Origin: Hygrocybe punicea
Lineage: Eukaryota > Basidiomycota > Agaricomycetes > Agaricales > Hygrophoraceae
DNA: 64,000 bases
Assembly (NCBI GenBank): GCA_963556145.1
Contig: OY744464.1
Location: 6,485,508-6,549,507 of the forward strand
Reading direction: 5' to 3'
Made by a program: the position numbers and the translations under genes. Shown here one piece after another: positions 12,874 to 43,589 of the stretch. A model generated the notes under the pieces. The model did not search any database and was not told the origin of the DNA. It was given only the letters and a program-made list of their open reading frames with translations. Every line of letters starts with the position of its first letter. Within the stretch, counting starts at the first letter, position 1.

Positions 12874-13200
12874 GTGCCCCCACACACGCCCCGTACCCGA
12901 ACGGAGCCCCAGGACACGCGCCCCGAAAAGCCACAGCGTGATATACCCCCCCCAGTACTGCCGTTAACCCCCATTTCCGTCTCCCAACTTTATAGTGTAT
13001 ATAAACGTGATTTTTCTGACCTACGTACAGGTGCTTGACCGTGGAGCAGCACCCGCTGCCGCAACCGTTGCCTGTTACCCCAACGCCACGCCCGTCACCC
13101 GTTTCCCAACCCAGTACAGCCCCCTCGCCAACCAGTTCCCACCGAAATTATCCCACCAATCGCACCGCCCCCACAACTCGTCAACGCAGGTACTCAGACT

Positions 13201-13521
13201 ATGGAAGATGAACAGCCGACAATCTTCCCTGCATCAACATTGTACGGTCCCGTCCAGTCATCAATAGCGCTTGCCCTTGGTGTGGCCATCCCCTTTGTGA
13301 TTGATCGATCATGGGCTATAGCTGAGCTCGCATGGGGCCCAGGAATTGACTCACGGTACAGTCTCTTAGAGCTTCTCCCCCCAGATGTGAACATTATGCT
13401 ACATGTTCTCATGGAGATTGTACACCCTCAGTGTGGCAACCACGACCCGCTCTTTGGACCCCTCTTAGCACCGGTGATAGCGAGGATAGTAGATGAGTGG
13501 GTGGATTTTCAGGGAGGATGA
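13201..13521 (+). CDS. possible C-terminal exon of the LTR-B gene
   Basis: This 107-codon frame encodes a compact hydrophobic domain with SIALALGVAIPFVIDRSWAI and LLPPDVNIMLHVLMEIVHP. It ends just before the polypurine tract. It may be joined to the P/T-rich frame at 12064-12873 by one or more introns between 12873 and 13201, where plausible GT and AG sites exist. I do not recognise the domain. Confidence 0.4.
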   Translation: MEDEQPTIFPASTLYGPVQSSIALALGVAIPFVIDRSWAIAELAWGPGIDSRYSLLELLPPDVNIMLHVLMEIVHPQCGNHDPLFGPLLAPVIARIVDEWVDFQGG

Positions 13522-13578
13522 GATTTTCAGAGGCAGGAGATGTGTGCGAGGGCGCACACCATTGTGGAGGGGGGTATC

Positions 13579-13739
13579 TGCAGCAGTAGCTGCTAGCCCC
13601 TAGGACCCCAGAGACCCTTAGCCAGTAGATTCTCTTTCCTGTAGTAGCTTAGTCATCCATCCTTGGGTTTCCTCAGCTTTCCCCTCCCAGCCGCGGCTCC
13701 CCCTGAGCTCTTCCCTGAGGTCCAGAGATTCCCCCTCCA
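13579..13739 (+). repeat. 3' LTR of LTR-B (161 bp, internally deleted)
   Basis: It has the same ends as the left LTR. The internal 162 bp are missing at a CCGC junction. It is followed directly by the duplicated ACGC. Confidence 0.8.
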
Positions 13740-13760
13740 ACGCGTCAATTGACGCATCTG
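13740..13760 (-). other. SID hairpin of E0 (5' half; completed at 11414-11435)
   Basis: On the minus strand ATGCGTC-AATT-GACGCGT forms a 7-bp stem with an AATT loop. LTR-B inserted at the 3' foot of the stem. The expected downstream part, GTCTGGCCTGAGTGAGGT, lies at 11414-11431 beyond the element. See the findings for the alignment of all copies. Confidence 0.6.
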
Positions 13761-14105
13761 TCACCCTAGCGAGGTATGGGGTGGGGACTCAGATGAGCCA
13801 GGCGCTGTTCCTGGTGCCCTTGGTGCCGGATACCTCATGAACAACATGTCAGGCCATGTTCGCGAGTTGTGATGGCCTGTGGCGAAAGGAAAAGGGAACA
13901 CGGGCTACACCCATGTTCCCATTGATGTCGTCAGTGCCAGATACTTCACGAATGACATCTACATGTCAGTGCTCGTTCACGAATTGTGATGGCTGTGGTG
14001 AGGAGGAATTGGGACCATTCCCATTTTCGTCGTTGGGGCTTTTGCGTTTGTGAGGGGATGGCAAAGTTAGTGGACACGATGGGTTAGATATGGGGTGCAT
14101 ACCTG

Positions 14106-14137
14106 GGCCGGTAGGCAGGCGCACCACCCTCCCAGCC
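14106..14137 (-). other. hairpin abutting a 5' splice site in E0
   Basis: GGCTGG pairs with CCGGCC (one T-G wobble) around AGG/CCT. The stem ends 3 nt before CAG|GTATGC, a good 5' splice site on the minus strand. Confidence 0.4.
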
Positions 14138-14629
14138 ATTTTCTTTCTGTTGCATCGTTTTTGTTGTGGTGGTCATGGCTGTGAAAATTAGTAGTTAGTA
14201 AGTAGACCAAATAAGAATAAAATCTTACCTTTGGGGCCCCTCTGTGTTTACCTGTGGATACCCGTCTACCGTGGGTATGGGTGTGTGGTAGTGCACAGGT
14301 TGCCAGATCGGGACACCGTACCCGTACCCGAGCAACCTGTGGCCTGAAAACCGCAGGTTTACCTGAACCTGTGCCATTCCCTAGGAATATACCTTGGGCT
14401 TCCACCTCTGCTGGTGTTCGACTTCGAACCGTATCAGTCAAAGCAACCGCAACAGTGTCTGCATTCTGAATTAAGTCACGGTGGTATGCCAAGCATCAAA
14501 TACACCATGCAGTCTTGTTTGAGTTGTTGTTCTTGTAAAATGTTCCATCTGTGATGAGGTGCACCCATGACCAGTGACTTATGGTTGAGAGGAGAAGCAA
14601 AGTGGCAAAAATCAAACTTTGACATTGAA

Positions 14630-16598
14630 AGCGCTGAAGTCGTGTTACAAGTTGTGTGCAAGTTGTGTTATATTGTCATGGTGCATATCTAATCTTATCT
14701 CATCCCAAAAAGGCTTGACTAGTCGAAGTCAGACAGTCAGCCTGATGTGACTGTCGTGACTTGACTACAGTGACCTGGGGTTGGTCTGACTTGTACAACA
14801 CTGTCGGGGTTGGATATCATAAATAAATGTCAATAGCAGACATTGTCCAATCGTTCTGTCTTACATGCTATCAGCATTTCATCATGGGTGACCCGTATAC
14901 TTCAACCTTCAGCCGGCATCCCATCTCGTACACGACTACATACGGCTTCATCAATCATGTGACTTTGAATTATTTTACTTGGAAAGACTACTGATATGTA
15001 AATTGTAAATTCAATGGGAGATATATAAGACATTTGACATTTAATAAAATTAGAATTACATCCATTAAATGTTTCTGTCAACTCAAATTACTATTTTAGT
15101 TCTTTATTCATGGAGGTGTGGTTATCTGCTACAATTTGGAAGCTATAGCTTGCTTTATAACATGACACCACCTGTATAATATTTTGATAAAAAAATAAAT
15201 ATGAAAAGGTTATCTTAAAATTAATCTATTTTATTTCAACACATGGTTAGAAGAAATATTCTGAAAATATATTGTGGCATTTCTACATAATTTCAATCAA
15301 AGTATTGGGTGACTTCCCATAGCATTTAAATAATCTAAAAACATAGATTAGCACCATATGCAGTACTCTGATCAACAAAGCCAAATGGCCACTAAGACCC
15401 CGGAAAAAACTTCAAGCTCCATCATCCTGAAATGGTGGAATATACCCAAAATCTGGAAGGGGGGTACCCTCCCCCTTCTAGATTAAATTTATTTCTGCAT
15501 TAAGTTTGGAGATCCACCCCACTCAGAACAACCTGATTGTGCCTTTGCCAAGTCTCAGCATGTCAAATTCTAACATCTCAACCAGATTCAACTGACACTG
15601 AACAAATTAGGCCAGCAGCAAGAAGCTGACTCAGCTAGGGGTTCCAGCTCCAACTGGCACCCTGTTTATGTTGAAAACATATTTAAATGCTGTGGGAAGT
15701 CACCCATTATTTCAAACATAATGAATGTTATGAAATAAAGAATGAAGCCACTGGGTGACTTCCTGCAGCATTTCTAAATATTTGGTAGAATAAACTTGAC
15801 AAATAAAAAATATAAATGGTAGTCAGCCAAGATGCTGTGCACATTCAGGGTCCAGATTTTTATCAGTCAAGTTTGAACAATTTCTAAACCTTAATCTGTT
15901 CAACACCCCCCCCCTTGAACAGACTTTTCAGCTTAAATTTTGCGAACATAAACCCAAAATAGAAACAAATGTAGGTAACGTGTTTCAAGGTCTCATATTC
16001 TGGCTGACTTCCATCATTCAGCAAGCTCCAGTTGTCCTCTTATAAATTGAGCTTGACAACTCCATCGACATCATCTGGTGCACTGTTTTCACCATTGGTT
16101 GGATGCTGAACTTTTCTGGGCACAGTGTAAGGTCCCTGCTTGTCATGTGGCGGCTTTCATGCACTTTCAGGCTTAACTCCTTTCCAGGCTGAACTATGCT
16201 GGTGACCCTGCCATGTTTCAATATACAGCACTGCTTGCAATGCTTCTAGCTCACCTGTCATTGTCAAGGCCCTGCTAGAACCACCTTACAAATGTAGTTG
16301 CCATCACCCTGAATCCAACTATAAAATGACCTCAACATCACAAAGAAGTCCACCCACTGATGACACTCCTTTTTTGACTTCCTCATTATATTGCTCCTTA
16401 TCATTTTTGAACTACCTGTCTTCCATTTTTCACCACCATCTGTGAAAGTCCCTGAACCATGCTATGATGACAATAACTACCCATATACTTGCAACTTGTG
16501 AGGAAACTGGGTCCCACCCATACCATGGCCCATTACAGGTACAAGTTATAATATGTCAAAACTTGTTAATTTTTGCTTACATTCTTCAGTTTGGCCAG
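14630..16598. other. AT-rich stretch without genes
   Basis: No coding frame of note. TGACT words at 14700-14800 and CAACACTG at about 14797-14804 may mark the right end of the old hAT element. The rest is AT-rich and holds a MITE at 15306-15706 and a further half copy starting at 15752. Confidence 0.5.
15306..15706. mobile_element. short inverted-repeat element (MITE-like)
   Basis: TGGGTGACTTCCCATAGC at 15306, continuing to the AAAT ending at 15331, recurs inverted at 15681-15706, where reading inward gives TGGGTGACTTCCCACAGC. This makes a 401-bp element. A similar single end, TGGGTGACTTCCTGCAGC, lies at 15752. No target duplication was obvious, and no coding sequence lies inside. Confidence 0.5.
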
Positions 16599-16789
16599 TT
16601 TGCTGCTAGTGTATTGCATGGGTATGGGTAAACCTGTGGGTTTTGCCACATGTACAGCCTCAGGTACAGGTACAGGTCACCCTTTTGTGACCTGTGGCTG
16701 TACCCATACCCGCAACAGGTTCCCCATGACTTAAGGTCACACAAGTGATGCGTCACATTCAACATGAACGTGATACATTGAATGATAAG

Positions 16790-16818
16790 GCAGAGACCAG
16801 CACAACGCTGGTCTCTGC
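16790..16818 (+). other. perfect 12-bp hairpin next to a 5' splice site in E1
   Basis: GCAGAGACCAGC-ACAAC-GCTGGTCTCTGC has a perfect 12-bp stem and a 5-nt loop. It is followed by TAAAG|GTATGT, a strong 5' splice site. Confidence 0.6.
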
Positions 16819-16964
16819 TAAAGGTATGTTTTTTCTCATTGAAATCATTACCTACGAACTTTACAGGTACATTTACACATCATAAATGGCCACAATGAAA
16901 ATGAGGAGGAGGAGGACAGTGATGGCAGGGGCAAGGACCACAGTGGCAACACCAAGTGACACAA

Positions 16965-16996
16965 GACTGGGGGAGTGGTGCACCCAACCCCCAGTC
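16965..16996 (+). other. splice-site hairpin of E1 (5 nt before 5'SS)
   Basis: The stem GACTGGGGG/CCCCCAGTC encloses AGTGGTGCACCCAA and is followed by GCCAG|GTGAGT. The equivalent E2 hairpin differs by two compensatory pairs. Confidence 0.65.
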
Positions 16997-17181
16997 GCCA
17001 GGTGAGTTTGCCATTCACTGGCATTCCCCCAGCCCAGGACCACTGTCAACAAGCACGGCCCACATGTCCAACAATGTAATCACCTGGCATGCCTGCTGAC
17101 TACATGCAACCACACAGGGTGCCCACCAACTGGGCAGGCACACCCCACCCACCCCCCATTCCACCTCGCGATCATGCAGCA

Positions 17182-17215
17182 TGCGTCCATTGATGCACGC
17201 CTGGTCCTGCGAGGT
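17182..17215 (+). other. SID hairpin, first copy in E1
   Basis: TGCGTC-CATT-GATGCA (one G-T wobble) is followed by CGCCTGGTCCTGCGAGGT. Confidence 0.6.
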
Positions 17216-17303
17216 CAAAAGGGCAATGTGGGTATGCCCCAGAGCAAGAAACCCATGGGCACCCAAATACAACCACCTCTGTTCACCTCACGTCCACCAG
17301 TGT

Positions 17304-17337
17304 TGTGTCAATTGACACACGTCTAGTGTCACGAGGT
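17304..17337 (+). other. SID hairpin, second copy in E1
   Basis: TGTGTC-AATT-GACACA, a perfect 6-bp stem, is followed by CGTCTAGTGTCACGAGGT. Confidence 0.6.
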
Positions 17338-17948
17338 AAAGGTGTGCATGTCTGTAGGCAGGGAGACCCATGGGTTACCCGCTATGGGTACAGGTACAGG
17401 TTGGGTATGGGTAGAAAAAACAAGACCCAGCACAAAACCCATACCCGTGGTGATGGGTATGGGTATTCACAGGTGTGGGTACAGGTATCCCCAAAAGTAC
17501 ACAGGGGTTACCCATGCAATACACTAGTTGCTGCCACTAATAATGGCATCCACAATGCCTCATGTCATGGACCCAATCTGCCAACAACAAATGCATTTCC
17601 TTTTCATCCTTTTCATTCTTTTTGGTGGGGATTGCCATGCTGATATATATGCTATAGAGTCCTGCCCTTGTGGCACCTTCTATGATGCCCTCATCTTATA
17701 GTGATCACTGTGACATTGCAATCAATCCATCCCTTGTTCCCCTTCCAAATGACGATAACTAGTGTATTGCATGGGTAACCCCTGTGTACTTTTGGGGATA
17801 CCCATACCCACACCTGTGAATACCCATACCCATCACCATGGGTATGGGTTTTGTGCCAGGTCTTGTTTTTTCTACCCGTACCCGACCCATACCCGTACCC
17901 ATAGCGGGTAACCCATGGGTCTCCCTGCCTACAGACATGCGAACCTTT

Positions 17949-17987
17949 ACCTTGTGACACTAGACGTGCATCACTTGATGCAACGCC
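17949..17987 (-). other. SID hairpin, copy b in E2
   Basis: On the minus strand TGCATC-AAGT-GATGCA is followed by CGTCTAGTGTCACAAGGT. Confidence 0.6.
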
Positions 17988-18079
17988 AGTGGACACAAGG
18001 TGAATGGAGGTGGTTGTCTTTGGGTGCCTGTGGGTTTCTCCCACTTGTCGCTCCAGGACATACCCACATCACCCTTTTG

Positions 18080-18117
18080 ACCTTGCAAGACCAGACGTGC
18101 ATCAATGGATGCATGCC
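18080..18117 (-). other. SID hairpin, copy a in E2
   Basis: On the minus strand TGCATC-CATT-GATGCA is followed by CGTCTGGTCTTGCAAGGT. Confidence 0.6.
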
Positions 18118-18153
18118 ACATGATCGTGAGATGGAATGGGGGGCAGGTGGGGT

Positions 18154-18400
18154 GTGCCTGCCCAGTTGGCAGGCACCCTGTGTAGTTGCATGTAGTCAGC
18201 AGCCACGCTGGGTATTGTGTCATTGGACGTGTGGGCCATGCTCGTTGATGCTGGTCCTGGGCTGGGGTAATTGCCAGTGCCTGCCCAGTTGGCAGGCACC
18301 CTATGTGGTTGCATGTAGTTGGCAGCCACACCAGGTGATTATGTCATTGGACATGTGGGCCACGCTTGTTGACAGTCATCCTGGGCTGGGGGAATTGCGA
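18154..18400. repeat. 123-bp tandem duplication with hairpins in E2
   Basis: Two adjacent units each begin with GTGCCTGCC-CAGTT-GGCAGGCAC, a perfect 9-bp hairpin, and continue through a shared block ending in CTGGGCTGGGG plus about ten bases. E1 has only one unit, with a weakened stem. Confidence 0.65.
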
Positions 18401-18441
18401 GTGAGTGGCAAATGAACGGATTATTAGCAAACTCACCTGGT

Positions 18442-18473
18442 GACCAGGGGGTGGGTGCACCACTCCCCTGGTC
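18442..18473 (-). other. splice-site hairpin of E2 (5 nt before 5'SS)
   Basis: On the minus strand GACCAGGGG pairs with CCCCTGGTC and is followed by ACCAG|GTGAGT. Two base pairs covary relative to E1. Confidence 0.65.
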
Positions 18474-18837
18474 TTGCTTCACTTGGTGTTGCCACTGTGG
18501 CCCTTGTCCTTGCCGTCACTGTCCTCCTCCTCGTAGTTTTCATTGTGGCTGTTTATGATGTGTAGTTGTACCTGTAAAGTTCATAAGTAATGATTTAAAA
18601 AAGAGTTAGGGTACGTACCTGGGCCACTAGGTGGGCACACCACCCTCCCAGCCATCCTCTCCATTGCTGTTGTTGTGGTCATTGTGGTTGCATTGTTGCA
18701 TTGCGGTTGTGGTTGTGGGTAAACGTGAAGCATCACTGGGGTGACTGAATGTCACGGGTTACCCATCATGGGTACAGGTAATCGCACAGGTACAAATTAC
18801 TGTACCCGTACCCGCACCTGTGCATCAGGAAAATTAC

Positions 18838-19185
18838 AAGCCCTTTTTTTGCACCTTTTGCACCTTTTACAAGGTGCAAAAGGTGCAAAAGGTCCCAAGA
18901 GGTCCACCTTTTCCAAGAGGTAGTACCTTTTCCAAGAAAGTGATCCAGCTTAGAAAAGGTCAAACTCTTGGAAAAAGAGGTCAAAGGAGAAAAAAAAGGA
19001 AGGGAAAAGGAAGGGAAAAGAAGAGCTTTTGATTCCTTTTTTTCCTCCTTTTGACCTCTTTTTCCAAGAGTTTGACCTTTTCTAAGCCGGGTCACTTTCT
19101 TGGAAAAGGTGCTACCCCTTGGAACCTTGGCCCCTTTTGCTCCTTGTAAAAGATGGCCTTTTTCACGCAACAAATTGTCAAGATT
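18838..19185. repeat. long hairpin of ACCTTTT-type repeats
   Basis: The left arm (about 18848-18998) and right arm (about 19030-19180) are inverted copies with landmarks CTCTTGGAAAAAGAGGTCAA and GATCCAGCTTAGAAAAGG. Minus-strand frames over this region are a consequence of the repeat. Confidence 0.7.
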
Positions 19186-19520
19186 CAAAGACATCAATTA
19201 TTAATAATTAATAGATTAAAAATATATTTAATTGATTATATATTTAATTGATTTTATAGTAACTTTACTACAACTATATTTACTAACAACTTGACATATC
19301 AAGTAAATCAGTATTAACGAAATTGAAGTGAATGATATGCCCCATTCAAGTGAATGGATGCACGACTTATATATGTTTTGAGGTTGCGCACGGACCATTT
19401 GGCGAAGTTTGGCAAAATGAAGCGCCAAACATCATCACGTTTGCCATTTTCGGTACATTTGACTTAGCATTTTCGTGACTGAGGTACTGATCTTTATAGG
19501 ACAATGCCAACGCAACGATG

Positions 19521-20042
19521 ATGACGGCGAGCAAGACCAGGAGTGGTGCGGCCCCGGTACATGCGGTACTCCCTTACACCCACGTACTTTTTTATTTCCT
19601 TTCATTTTATTCATTTTATTTTATTTTATTCGACACTAACAATTAAAATTGCAGGTCTACGGCAACCACCACCATGACAACGACAATGACAACGACGATT
19701 GCCACCATGACGGCCACAACCACGACGTTGACAATCAATGCCACGTCGGACGCGCCGGCAACAGGCCCCATGGCAAACCAGGGCACGCGCACAAGCAAAC
19801 GAACGGAGTGGGCGAGTCAACGAGACGGAACGAGCAGCAGGGGGTGGTGCATCCACCCCCGCTGCTTCATGGTATGTTTTTCATTAAGTTTTTCTGTCAA
19901 TTTTATTCTTCTAACTGAAGAACGTGCCACCGTGCTGCCAGCCATGTCAATTGACGTGCATGGCTCTCTCGCGAGGTGGAAGTTGTCCGGTTCAACGCGG
20001 ACGCATCGGGACACCCAGACGAAGAGGCCCGTATATGGCTGA
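19521..20042 (+). CDS. small His/Asp/Asn-rich protein of E3 (E-family gene)
   Basis: Three exons with consensus splice sites: 19521-19556, 19655-19871 and 19921-20042, with reading phase maintained, giving about 124 residues. Exon 2 encodes a His/Asp/Asn-rich low-complexity region and then QQGVVHPPPLLH. Exon 3 encodes ERATVLPAMSIDVHGSLARW and a basic tail. The GVVHP word recurs in E1, and the SID codons lie inside the conserved hairpin. No transposase motif is present. An in-frame ATG just upstream at 19518 is an alternative start. The function is unknown; the coding potential may be secondary to the conserved RNA structures at 19833-19866 and 19943-19977. Confidence 0.45.
19833..19866 (+). 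other. splice-site hairpin of E3 (5 nt before 5'SS)
   Basis: AGCAGC(A)GGGGGTGG-TGCAT-CCACCCCC-GCTGCT has 14 pairs and one bulged A. It is followed by TCATG|GTATGT, the same 5-nt spacing as in E1 and E2. Confidence 0.65.
19943..19977 (+). other. SID hairpin of E3
   Basis: CATGTC-AATT-GACGTG (one T-G wobble) is followed by CATGGCTCTCTCGCGAGGT. Confidence 0.6.
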
Positions 20043-20941
20043 AGGCCGGTGCAAGGCCCCAGCACCCAAATTCCACCTCGCAGACAGGCTGGCCACACAT
20101 GGTCCATATACTGAAGTATGTTGAATTTATTGGGAGGGTATACTACATATTGTTATCATATTGTTGCACCAGTATTCGAAAAGAATTCAAAATCATAATG
20201 ATCCAATATTTTGAAACAAAGTACATTACCAGTGTTGATTGACAATTTTACAGTACTTCTTCAATAACAAGACATTTACTGACATTATTGAAGTTTCAAA
20301 TGTATACTGTACACAATTTATTTTGAAACTGAAAGTATTCATTCAGAAGTATTTAAATAACCTGTAAAAAAAGGCTAACAAACCACAAAAGATATGGAAA
20401 AGCTTTCAAGAGATTCTTCTTTTCCAAAGACAAAACAACTTTTTCAAGAAATGGACCCGGCTTAAAAAAGCTCTTTGTCTTGGGACAAGAGGTATCCTTT
20501 TTCAAAGTAATTCACTTTTGAAAAAGATGGGAAAAGTAGAAAAAAAGAAGAAAAAGCATCAAAGGTCAAAAGTGATCCAAGGTCATAAGGTCAAAAGTGG
20601 TAAGACAAGTAAAGTGATTAATTGTAAAGGACCAACAAGTAAGCAAAGTGCTAAAGGAGTCAAAGTAATCCAAGTTTGAAAAGGTGGGAAAAAGTTGAAA
20701 AGGGTGAAAAGGTGTGCAAGGGATATTATGTAGTAAATATTTCCAAGTGACTCAAAGTGCCATAAGGTAGCAGAAGTTGTTAAAAAAGATGAAAAAAACC
20801 TCAGAAAAAAGTTCAAGAGGTTTCAAAAAAGGTCAAGAGCCTCCAAGGTGCAAAAAAAGGGCTTGTAAATTTCCTGATGTGGCTGTACCCATGGCAAAAC
20901 CCATGGGTTTACCCATACCCATGCAATACACTAATGATAAC

Positions 20942-23040
20942 CAAGACCTGTCAGACCCTCCTGCCATTGCTAAAGCCTGTGGTTATTCTGCTTTGGCCAA
21001 AATTGCTGGAGTTCAGCGTAAAGCTTCATCAAACAGCAAGAACCTGGCACCTGCTGTGGTAGTGGTGAAGAAGTGCAAGATGTTGAGGATTTAGACATTG
21101 TGCAGGTGAGATGTGGCTGACCACCAGGTGCTGGGAATTACTCAGACAATGACATGGCCATTTCATGGAAGATTGTTACGTTTTTCAACTCCACAACTCC
21201 GATCCCGACTCCGCTACCCATGATGACGATTCCACTTTACCATACCTTCCTTTTTCGTTCTTCTTTACCTTTTGTCTTCTTTTGGACATTGTTGTTGTTA
21301 TCTTTTCATCCTTTCTTCTAGAACAATCCAGACTGACCATGGACACATCCCCATGTTACCTTGCTGTACCCAAATAGTCTCCTTGCCGACGGACATCATC
21401 GCTATTGTCTTTTCCCTCACCCTGACATATTGTTAACTTCATCCCACGACAAACCAATTTACAATGGCTGTACTCCCGACACAGCTAATTACCGTAATCA
21501 TCATTGGCAGCATCACCATCACCTTCCTTATCAGTTTCTACTTTGTTATGATCTATCTTTGGCATCAGCACTGAAACCCTTCCGCCATTGATACTTCTGA
21601 CTTCCACCTCAACAATATCTCACCACATAATTGACAATTGCCATTCCCAGATATATGGTTTCCACTTTCGTATTCCGTGCCTACCATTATCCTCCCTGAC
21701 GATCCAACAACATTCCTCACCTGCACGCATGCCCTGAACAATCCTCGATCACAGGACATTTCACTATTCCCTCCAATCCGACCACCACTGAAGCACATAC
21801 CTTCAGACTTCGACCACAGACCATACGACTTCCCAATACAGTGAACCGACCCCTATTGTTTATTGTTCACATGACATCACTTCAATGCAGTACCTGACAT
21901 CTTATTCCCACAGCCTGTCACTCGTGCCATGACTCGAAACCTGGACCCACATTCATTTATCCTTTTCCATCCATAACCTTGATACCGCCCACACTCATTT
22001 GCAACAATACCCTTTCTTGGACGAATACCGACATCAGGTGGACCGCTGATACGCAGCGCAAGTCCCTAAGCACGGAAACCCTCTATTGGACCTATTCTAG
22101 CCTCAACATGCTGTGATTCACTGTGAAACATCCCGATTTATATATATCTCCATTGCGATGTGACTGCGATATGCACGCGATACGGGCGATAATTTGACAT
22201 TATGGTGATTTTCTTCGGAGCTCTTCGGCCCCTTCGGAAACATATTTCGAGCCTCTCCGACATCATCCACGCTTATACCATTCACCCTATTCCATTCCGA
22301 TTCCATTCCGGTTCCAGGGAAGTCTTTTTGCAACATGTTTCACTTATTTCAAACATTATAGCTCCTATCCTCTAGATATTTTGGAAATTGCTTCGCATGG
22401 TGCTATACCCTTCATTTCAGTCCATTTCATCCCTATTGCACCATAGTTCCGTCGTGCACTGTCTATTTGTCTTGCCTTCTTCACCCTGTATTGTCCTAAC
22501 AACCAACTTCGCATAAATACCCTCTATAATTTACATACTAGAGAGACGTCTTGTATACCCCCGATTCCAGTCTATCATATCACCTCTTTACTGTGCCATC
22601 CATGTGATAGCTCCGCTGTACTCTATTAAACTTTGCGTTCCTTCTATAAAGTGCTACATATACGCCGAAAACATCGCTGACCGTTTCGCACACACTGCGC
22701 ACATCGCACACATCGCACACATCAGAAACATCATCGCCACTATCCAGAGCACCTCTGAGTATTTTTATTAACCTTTTGGATTGAGATTGAACCCCTCAGA
22801 ATTCGTACAGCACTCTGGTAGAGTTGGTATTTGATTCCGTTCACATTACCGCAGTGCACCCTTTCACTGCATTGTTCCACAGACAGGACAAGACATCACC
22901 CCTTGATACATCATCGACACAGACATCATCATCCGGTACAGCTTATACTGTTCACATGTCTGACCTCGACTAGCCCACTGTCTTAGTTGGTTTTTCCTCC
23001 ATACATTCCTTTATTTTTTTCATACCACCAACCTTGCCGC
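20942..23040. other. gene-less, pyrimidine-rich flank
   Basis: No frame longer than about 100 codons and no recognisable domain. Composition is C/T-rich with many CATCAC/CCATT words. The same type of sequence resumes at 40853 after the Gypsy element, up to about 41340, so the retrotransposon landed inside it. Confidence 0.5.
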
Positions 23041-40852: not shown

Positions 40853-42445
40853 CCGCTATATCCCACATTACCTCAAGACACTCCCTTCACCAATCCCACA
40901 CTGGACAATACCCTTCTTTGACCCGACCATGCAATGCACTTGCCAGACTGCACACTTGCCCGTTACAGCAGGTGTAGACCCCAAATTGGCAATTCTGCTT
41001 GTCACATGATCTGATGACAAATCATCCGAGTCATCCGGACCTCCTCTATCCCTCAATGACACCCGGGCCTCCAGTTGGATCGCGAGAACATCAACATGAG
41101 GACACCTCATGTCCGCCTCATGGTGCACACATGGTGTAGTTGGACATGTTGTAGCTTCATGGTTGGATTCCCATTTACCTCCCCTCAAGTCCATTCACTA
41201 TATCTACTGTCCTTGTTGTTGGTTCAGACTTTTTCTTCTTTCTTTTCCTTACGTTTAGTCTGGTTCTTGGGGCAGACCCCCTTGTCTTGGGTAACCCCCA
41301 CGGCTCGCATGACATTAGACCATGAACCCCCCCCCCCTTTGTAGCAGTGTTGTCTTAGCTATAAGCAACAATGAAAACTGCTGCGGTCTCCTCTGGAATC
41401 CAATCCCTAGTTAAGTTGATTGTTGCCGGAGCCCGCTGCAGAAGCAATCCGTAACAAAGATGAACTCCTCATTGAAATGTATGGCTGGGGTATTGTCCAT
41501 GCCAAGTACACAAATTGGGCTCATCAGCATCAGTGCCCTGAGCATGGCCTCAAGTCTCTTAAAATAAAATTCAAACAGGTAAGAATGTCATTTACATTGT
41601 GGTATTTGATCTGACATAGTTTCAGCTCATTAAAACAACTAAACCAACTGGTGATGGTGTGGTTTCACCCACTGTTGAAAGGACATGGAAGATAGATGTG
41701 CTCATCAACAAACGTGCTGGAACTCATGAACTTGCAGATTTGGACTATGATGGTGATGCAAATGATACTATCATTGATACACCAACCCCAGCAGCAGAGT
41801 TGAGCAGCAATGATAGCAAACCTCCTCCCCCAAAGGTCATAGCTCACATTACCTGTCATGACATTTTGTCATGTCCTAATCACAACCAAGCCCATGGACA
41901 TGGGATTGATGTCATGGAGAAACTAACTAGGGCCTTTGAACCATCTGCACAGCAAGCACATGATGAGCAGTGTGCAAGTCATTCTCTCCAAAACTCTCAA
42001 TTCATGGTACTATCTCACCAGCTCTGAGATGCTCAGGCAATGATCAAGTCCCTGTGATTGCAGGTCATGGATCTTCAAACTCGAGTTCACACTTCAGCAA
42101 GCACTCGAGACCAGGCTGAACTGAGAATGGAGATGCTGCAGATGTCCATGACAACTGGAGCTCCATGTCAAGAACTGTCACAATCTGGGTGTCGAGAACT
42201 GTCACCTCCTGATCATTGAGAATCATTCCCATCTGATTATCAAGAGCTGTCACTAGTGTTGCCGAAGTTCAGTTCGGTCCGGTTCCGACCCATTTTGGCG
42301 GAACCGCGAACTGAACTTCGGGTCCGGTTTGGCGCATGGCCAAACCTGGACCCGGACGGCATTGAACCGTTTCTCCGCGTTCGGTCTGGGTTCAGACGCG
42401 GTCTGAACCCCGGACCGAGGTGGGCTCACCCCATGAGCTCCGTTC

Positions 42446-42483
42446 TCCTCGCGAATGGCAGGCACGTATCAATCGATACGGCG
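42446..42483 (-). other. SID hairpin of E4
   Basis: On the minus strand CGTATC-GATT-GATACG is followed by TGCCTGCCATTCGCGAGGA. Confidence 0.6.
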
Positions 42484-42499
42484 CTACACTTCACGAGGT

Positions 42500-42970
42500 A
42501 GTTGGGCTGCGGGGGAGCCGTCCGGCGCTGCTGCTGCCGCCGCTGTCACTGCTGCCGTTGCTGCCGCTGCCGGCGCTGCTGCTGCTGCCGTTGCCGTTGC
42601 TGCTGCCGGCGCTGCTGCTGCTGCCGTCGCCGTTGCTGCTGCCACTGCTGCTGCTGCTGTCGTGGCCGTTGCTGCTGCCGCCGTTGCTGCTGTTGCTGTT
42701 GCTGCTGCTGCCAGCATTGCTGCTGCTGCTGGCCGTCATAGTTGTGGTTGCCATTGTTGTTGCCGCCGCTGGTGGTGATGTTGGATGGCTTTGGCTATTG
42801 CCGCTGCCGCTGCTGCTGCTGCTGCTGCCATTGCTGCCGGCGCTGCTGCTTCCGCTGTTGCTGCTGCTGCTGGCCGTTGCCGTTGTCGTTGCCTGGTTGC
42901 CGTTGCCTTTGCCGTTGCCATTGCCGCCACTGGTGGTGGTGGTGGTGGTGTTGCGGCTGCCCCGTGTCCG
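42500..42970. repeat. imperfect CTG/CAG-type trinucleotide tract
   Basis: A mosaic of CTG, CCG, TTG and GCC triplets on the plus strand. All six frames stay open for long stretches, giving poly-Ala, poly-Leu, poly-Cys, poly-Ser/Gly or Gln-rich translations. None can be preferred. Confidence 0.8.
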
Positions 42971-43088
42971 TTGGCATTGCGTTGGCGTTGGCATTCATCT
43001 TGTGCCAATGTGGTTGCGATGTGGTCGCAGTCGAGTTGCCTGCCGCAAATAACATTAGTAAAGTTAAGAAAAAAATGGAAACTTACCT

Positions 43089-43119
43089 TTGAACACAACA
43101 CAATTTGTGTTGTGTTCAA
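43089..43119 (-). other. 31-bp near-perfect palindrome before a 5' splice site in E4
   Basis: TTGAACACAACACAA, one base, then TTGTGTTGTGTTCAA: 15-bp arms. On the minus strand it ends next to AAAG|GTAAGT. Confidence 0.65.
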
Positions 43120-43589
43120 CCCGCGTTGAAGTTGCTGTGTTGCGTGAAAGGTCACGGCCGGTCACATGATGCCGTTTAACACGAAATAGTAAGTAAAGAA
43201 ATACGAAAAACAAATGAAATCAATACCTTAAAAATATCCGCATTCGCGGTTTGAACGCGGTTTGGAGCCGTTCAGGAAATCCGGCAGGCCTCGAAACCCG
43301 GAACTGAACCCGCGGTCCGGTTCAGCACTTGGCTGAACTTAGACCGAACTTAGGGTTCGGTTCGGGGTTTGAACCAGGTTCGGCTAGGTTCGGAACCGAA
43401 CTATGGCAACACTATCACCACCTGGGTGTCAAGAACCATTGCCATCACCACCTGGTCACCCAGAGCCGATGCTATCTGGTTTGTTCTCAGTGTTGGGTGC
43501 CAGTCCAGTTGGTCTGGATGAAAATAACTCAAGGTTGTGTTCCCCTGGTGACCGAAGCCATTGTTCCTCATCAAACCATTCTTTTTGAT

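Follow-up and report, generated by a model that had tools for sequence, protein, structure and literature searches.

A two-fold symmetric dyad, a candidate protein-binding site, in non-autonomous transposons of Hygrocybe punicea

What is the short inverted repeat that recurs in several small transposons of the basidiomycete Hygrocybe punicea, and why is it found in elements whose ends differ? The question is raised by a 64,000-nucleotide stretch of contig OY744464.1 (assembly GCA_963556145.1, positions 6,485,508 to 6,549,507), the whole of which we call the window, where a preliminary description had noted seven copies of a hairpin in five elements, E0 to E4. We find that the full unit, the SID dyad, is a two-fold symmetric dyad of 52-56 bp, and that the reported hairpin is one half of it. 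Judging from sequence analysis, we give a probability of about 0.5 to the reading that this dyad is a DNA-level cis-acting site, bound by a symmetric dimeric protein, in non-autonomous transposons of at least two superfamilies.

Architecture, symmetry and abundance of the dyad

The dyad is composed, in order, of ACCTCGCGA, about 8 nt, a stem strand, the core TCAATTGA, the other stem strand, again about 8 nt, and TCGCGAGGT. The window copies were read directly and also scanned by pattern. In the five undamaged ones, an ACCTCG-like left box lies about as far from the core as does the CGAGGT-like right box, and this mirrored arm makes the unit a two-fold symmetric dyad rather than a hairpin that has a tail on one side only. 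A covariance model derived from 38 genome-wide dyads, the E1 site at 17163 among them, matched the window at E<=0.05 at seven places only, all of which are the copies reported before (Table 1). The core is self-complementary or nearly so, and the strands that had been assigned to the copies are therefore largely arbitrary; for E0, called on the minus strand, the surviving CGAGGT lies on the plus strand. The box had been placed at a constant 24-25 nt, which does not hold, as the 108 arms of 54 sites measure 22-26 nt, with 23 nt in 66 of them. The N-A-[TG]-T rule for the loop proved to be a sampling effect, since AATC, AATG, AATA, AACT, and GACT occur elsewhere in the genome. Matches to the core TCNATTGA alone show no enrichment in the window (14, with 12.2 expected), so the evidence must rest on the larger arrangement.

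That arrangement was searched for in the window's own assembly (92.2 Mb, 42 contigs). The full-dyad pattern, ACCTCG-N13-20-TCAATTGA-N13-20-CGAGGT, has 1143 matches per strand, the equal counts following from its being its own reverse complement, and 1764 forward and 1755 reverse matches were counted for the half pattern, TCAATTGA-N15-20-CGAGGT; the reversed-pattern controls of both gave none on either strand. A version with one decayed arm (TGAGGT) is present 197 times forward and 201 times reverse, and one with a different base at the fourth loop position 105 and 95 times. Elements carry between one and four dyads. Some loci (L016-L022, L028-L033, and L037-L038) hold four-core clusters with cores 70-132 bp apart, in which the first core has no right box. 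The full-dyad pattern was also found in 9 stretches of 257 Gb of prokaryotic contigs, and it had no match in viral contigs.

Symmetry was not built into the sample in which it was tested, namely 22 distinct sites in loci L009-L038 that were fetched by core and right box only. A left box of the form [AT]CCT[CT][GA] stands at the mirrored distance in 20 of these sites, compared with 1.6% of random positions, and it reads exactly ACCTCG in 11. The hairpin first described is real, as one arm of this larger unit.

The matching of the two arms was measured at three levels of clustering (38, 23, and 11 clusters), which replaced earlier clusterings that were too lenient (54 sites into 4 clusters, 110 sequences into 5). 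With 38 clusters, the arm-to-arm match exceeds expectation at positions 3 (0.82/0.54), 4 (0.61/0.34), and 5 (0.55/0.36), with p about 0.003 or less, and the same three positions stand out again with 23 clusters. The excess is absent at position 6, and at positions 1 and 2, the CpG, it is not significant with 38 clusters (0.71 vs 0.64 and 0.68 vs 0.58); the inner two stem pairs are explained by CpG decay. Across the representatives of the 38 clusters, no variation is seen in TC/GA or in the outer five pairs; changes at the sixth outer base and at the inner CG are mostly CpG-type transitions, and the central four bases show single changes. A first-pair double change (C..G for G..C) is directly visible in two sites.

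Covariation between families had been claimed from the seven copies, with a larger alignment named as the check. In the 38 representatives, the covariation score is 0.276, compared with 0.162 (standard deviation (sd) 0.012) after shuffling, and none of 500 shuffles scored as high. The claim is supported, with no significant arm-to-arm excess at positions 1 and 2. Cells changed on both sides number 61 vs 26.8 (sd 4.2; 0/500 shuffles), and there is no excess of pairs that show a double change at all (9 vs 8.6); alignment and structure were drawn from the same related sequences, and these counts thus lean toward structure. Folded as RNA, 23 representatives have a mean energy of -27.0 kcal/mol; exchanging right arms among them raises it to -21.3 (sd 0.75), and 0/60 swaps came out as low. 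One site on contig C1 (C1:2374776-2374831) is a perfect 56-bp palindrome, whose arm pairs by eye with a different arm at C1:1052497 and C3:4193354, which suggests arm-to-arm copying.

Carrier transposons and the surrounding cassette

The elements that carry the motif differ in their termini, as had been described, and also in their target duplications. An 8-bp target-site duplication is typical of hAT transposons. E1, E2, and the element at locus L088, which has ends TAGTGAATGGC and an 8-bp target duplication with 7/8 matching bases, can be regarded as hAT-like; the 7/8 matches of all three were compared by eye. E4 was not filed with them, although its terminal inverted repeat (TIR) begins TAGTG like the others, because only 2 of 8 target-duplication bases match. 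E3 interrupts the right terminal array of E2, flanked there by a 2-bp TG duplication. The termini of the E3 family, CATCAGGAAAATTAC..CCTGATG, agree with those by which PlavakaB is defined, CATCA..TGATG with a 2-3 bp target duplication (PMC12730594), and 10 of 14 two-ended copies (13 loci and the window copy) show a 2-bp duplication (binomial P 7e-10 vs 1/16). The carriers thus appear to differ in class, with hAT-like (E1, E2, L088) and PlavakaB-like (E3) elements pointing to at least two superfamilies. In a further family (L073-L075), the terminal repeats are about 350 bp long with a dyad in each arm, and the middle part is inverted in L075. Long trinucleotide-like low-complexity tracts, some with frames open for hundreds of codons, adjoin dyads at L025, L026, L035, and L036 and at 42520-43000 in E4. 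A short interspersed element (SINE) with a highly conserved domain is not supported: the elements have TIRs, and in a search for a tRNA-like head ARAGORN, which detects whole tRNAs only, found 0 tRNA genes in window positions 13000-21000.

The genome contains at least 152 matches to hAT transposase (PF05699), at least 161 to Plavaka (PF18759), and at least 122 to TET/JBP. Their proximity to dyads was examined in the first 2.98 Mb of C1, using dyads among the half-pattern matches listed and excluding diverged ones; 18% of random points lie within 5 kb of such a dyad, as do 1/6 hAT, 0/5 Plavaka, and 1/8 TET matches. Next to the one near hAT match (L095), the dyad lies about 2.9 kb away with a second hairpin (see below) of its own, and by eye the hAT element seemingly starts after the dyad; this candidate for an autonomous carrier was accordingly set aside as apparently separate. 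Among the PF18759 matches listed, none lies within 5 kb of the 30 located E3 copies, the nearest by eye being about 8 kb away. Of four TET loci read, two contain dyads (L096, which was picked for its nearby dyad, and L097), and at both the dyad seems to lie in a small element of its own that also carries a second hairpin; with this and the lack of enrichment near TET matches in the C1 sample, a tie between the dyad and TET/JBP was rejected. Judging by this limited sample, the dyad seems to be a module of the non-autonomous rather than the autonomous elements.

The dyad was formerly taken as the sole feature uniting its carriers; this no longer stands, as a second hairpin and short intron-like stretches recur alongside it. 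In many families, a splice-donor-like GTAYGT or GTGAGT is preceded at a short distance by the second inverted repeat, whose core is TGGTGC[AG][CT]CC or a variant of it. A strand-oriented TGGTGCRYCC hairpin was also seen at L005, L008-L011, L013, L027, L072, L085, L086, L088, L093, L096, and L097. In 17 sequences, its arms fold better than swapped ones (-19.5 vs -16.7, sd 0.79; 0/200 swaps), and this oriented hairpin resembles an RNA structure. In several families it is followed, by eye, by short stretches that look like introns with branch points of the fungal type, and the dyads lie a few hundred bases downstream of the second hairpin. Donor phase and open frames are not conserved among 16 hairpin exons. 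The dyad apparently belongs to a short non-coding cassette that would be spliced.

What the dyad may be

In the likeliest reading, a symmetric dimeric DNA-binding protein would contact the outer boxes ACCTCGCGA and TCGCGAGGT and the centre TCAATTGA with its inner CG. The variable positions flanking the centre, which differ between families and match between arms, would keep the site symmetric either through dimers of differing specificity or through arm-to-arm copying. The bound dyad might then help its element to be expressed or to escape silencing. A protein that recognises double-stranded DNA would fit well with a self-complementary centre and with fixed sequence recurring inside the paired arms, and carriers of at least two superfamilies, hAT-like and Plavaka-like, make it unlikely that this protein is one transposase.

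The main rival, less likely but still plausible, is an RNA hairpin in the element transcript that would act in stability, nuclear retention, or small-RNA processing. The compensatory changes and the folding energy below that of swapped arms fit such a hairpin, as does the position of the dyad downstream of recurring splice-donor-like sites preceded by a covarying, strand-oriented hairpin. However, the usual core and loop are self-complementary, which an RNA tetraloop would not require, and two features expected of an RNA hairpin are not seen. The 67 dyad sequences with a known orientation comprise 804 stem pairs, with 59 A.C, 42 G.U, and 3 other mismatches on the strand presumed to be sense, hence no G.U preference in this set. 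The first loop position is changed in E1, E4, and L093, the fourth in L085, L086, and L091, the third in E2 and E3, the first and third in L088, and the second in none, so that no polarity of the outer positions is seen in families where orientation is readable; the orientation of L091 comes from its triplet-rich stretch only, and five of ten loci fetched for this comparison (L087, L089, L090, L092, and L094) gave no readable orientation. Rfam 15 returned 30 matches at E<=1 in window positions 13000-21000, none of them on a dyad and none at the gathering score; sub-threshold microRNA matches at 18910-19125 fall on a long fold-back (18913-19124) in the left subterminal part of E3. Taken together, the mismatch, loop, and core features lean, although not decisively, toward a DNA-level dyad. 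The earlier argument against a peptide can be retained.

Several observations weigh against a DNA site bound by a dimer. No binding protein was found. The third-position loop changes lean one way (E2, E3, and L088; few cases), which a symmetric site would not predict, and the G.U comparison is weak at the family level because 53 of the 67 oriented sequences are E3-family copies. At 11 coarse clusters, a clear arm-matching excess is left only at position 4 (p<0.001), with positions 8 and 10 weakly raised, and the excess at position 3 is gone (p 0.24), which speaks against any strong claim for that position. Arm matching reaches weakly past position 5, as shown by a folding energy of -23.1 (sd 0.72) when only that outer part is swapped, and a plain binding site has no need of it. 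The invariance of the outer five pairs and TC/GA is no evidence by itself, as these letters were required by the search patterns. The spacing differs by up to 4 nt, and the RNA-like, strand-oriented second hairpin makes an RNA role for the whole cassette possible.

The matching of the arms could also be mutational, with template switching perfecting quasi-palindromes and the dyads being relics of one ancestor spread by gene conversion between non-autonomous elements. The palindrome at C1:2374776, by eye two copies of an arm that is paired otherwise in related sites, speaks for this, as does the weak matching beyond position 5. We nevertheless consider it rather unlikely, since it does not account for boxes and spacing that stay similar among carriers with unlike termini and target duplications, and since the matching falls mainly on positions 3-5 and not on 6. 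Also unlikely, at nearly the same level, is that the dyad is the recognition site of a trans-acting anti-silencing system, in which a protein of host origin, or one encoded by an autonomous transposon, would open or demethylate the element, possibly with TET/JBP; the site would then be a pass shared across superfamilies, and its variable positions would record an arms race between paralogous binders and free riders. That a transposase or recombinase requires the dyad for movement is quite improbable. Multiple dyads inside transposons, and the L073 family with one per long terminal-repeat arm, would agree with it, but the termini and target duplications of the carriers differ, in the C1 sample only 0/5 Plavaka and 1/6 hAT transposase matches lie within 5 kb of a listed dyad, against 18% of random points, and the near hAT match seems by eye to be separate from its dyad. 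An encoded, conserved Ser-Ile-Asp peptide, already disfavoured in the preliminary description, is hardly credible: the E3 dyad can be read by eye in frame with an upstream exon, but the arm lengths are spread over all three reading frames, neither the donor phase nor the frame of the adjoining exon is conserved, and a 125-aa spliced reading has no homologue.

Table 1 Dyads, second hairpins, and carrier transposons in the window (positions are those of the window; TIR, terminal inverted repeat)
Feature	Coordinates	Strand	Sequence or state	Evidence or remark
SID dyad, full, E1 copy a	17163..17215		core TCCATTGA 17186-17193	covariance model E 6.8e-08; among the 38 model sequences
SID dyad, full, E1 copy b	17285..17337		core TCAATTGA 17308-17315	covariance model E 1.3e-07
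SID dyad, full, E2	17949..18001		core TCACTTGA / TCAAGTGA	covariance model E 0.0011
SID dyad, second E2 copy	18080..18132		one decayed outer box	covariance model E 0.026
SID dyad, damaged, E3	19929..19977		left arm lost; removed by an internal deletion at about 19940/19941 (compared with other family members)	pattern and covariance model
SID dyad, full, E4	42446..42499		core TCAATCGA on +	covariance model E 0.00016
SID half dyad, E0	13740..13775		right arm with CGAGGT on + (13770-13775); left arm gone	covariance model about 13732-13764, E 0.029
Second hairpin, E1	16965..17002	+	core TGGTGCACCC	ends at splice-donor-like GTGAGT
Second hairpin, E2	18442..18473	-		adjoins splice-donor-like GTGAGT
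Second hairpin, E3	19832..19872	+	core TGGTGCATCC	donor-like GTATGT
Putative 49-nt intron, E3	19872..19920	+	GTATGT...CTAAC...AG	5' of dyad; by eye
Perfect 15-bp hairpin, E4	43089..43119	-		shortly before donor-like GTAAGT
E1, hAT-like non-autonomous	16607..17526		TIR TAGTGTATTGC	8-bp target duplication 7/8
E2, hAT-like, E1 type	17760..20933		ends TAGTGTATTGC	8-bp target duplication 7/8; interrupted by E3
E3, PlavakaB-like non-autonomous	18823..20879		CATCAGGAAAATTAC ends	2-bp target duplication; nested in E2
E4	42254..43414		TIR TAGTGTTGCC/GGCAACACTA	without clear target duplication (2/8)

Known systems and significance

A literature search within one library, covering titles and the starts of abstracts, returned no description of this dyad motif. 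The closest analogue is the highly conserved domains of SINEs, one of which, the V domain, is also found inside the MER6 DNA transposon (PMC6887750). Like the dyad, these are short conserved central domains that are present in different non-autonomous elements and cross transposon classes. They are metazoan, however, and in the parts of that source available to us are not described as palindromes, whereas the dyad is an inverted repeat in fungal DNA transposons with one to four copies per element. The closest working system is VANC anti-silencing in Arabidopsis VANDAL elements, whose targets are likewise short motifs in non-coding transposon parts, often repeated and varying between related elements (PMC5735166). 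Those targets, unlike the dyad, are bound by a known element-encoded anti-silencing protein, and sharing between superfamilies is not mentioned in the abstract of that paper.

Passage across superfamilies is described for the TET/JBP gene cargo of fungal transposons, with hAT and Plavaka among its carriers (PMC12730594). That cargo is a gene, whereas the dyads look non-coding; their cassette appears to have made a similar crossing between superfamilies. Bacterial repetitive extragenic palindromic (REP) sequences and REPINs resemble the dyads as abundant dispersed palindromes, but REPINs are described as mobile units themselves and the dyads lie within transposons (PMC3116915, PMC3733652).

The exact motif makes a binding protein directly searchable, and whether the cassette is transcribed and spliced can be tested through the second hairpin and its splice-donor-like site. 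If the dyad is indeed a bound site, more than 1000 copies on at least two superfamilies would amount to a genome-wide regulatory network. They would also offer a readout of cooperation or cheating by non-autonomous elements across superfamily borders, and would add the DNA transposons of fungi to the SINEs, in which shared conserved domains are already known.

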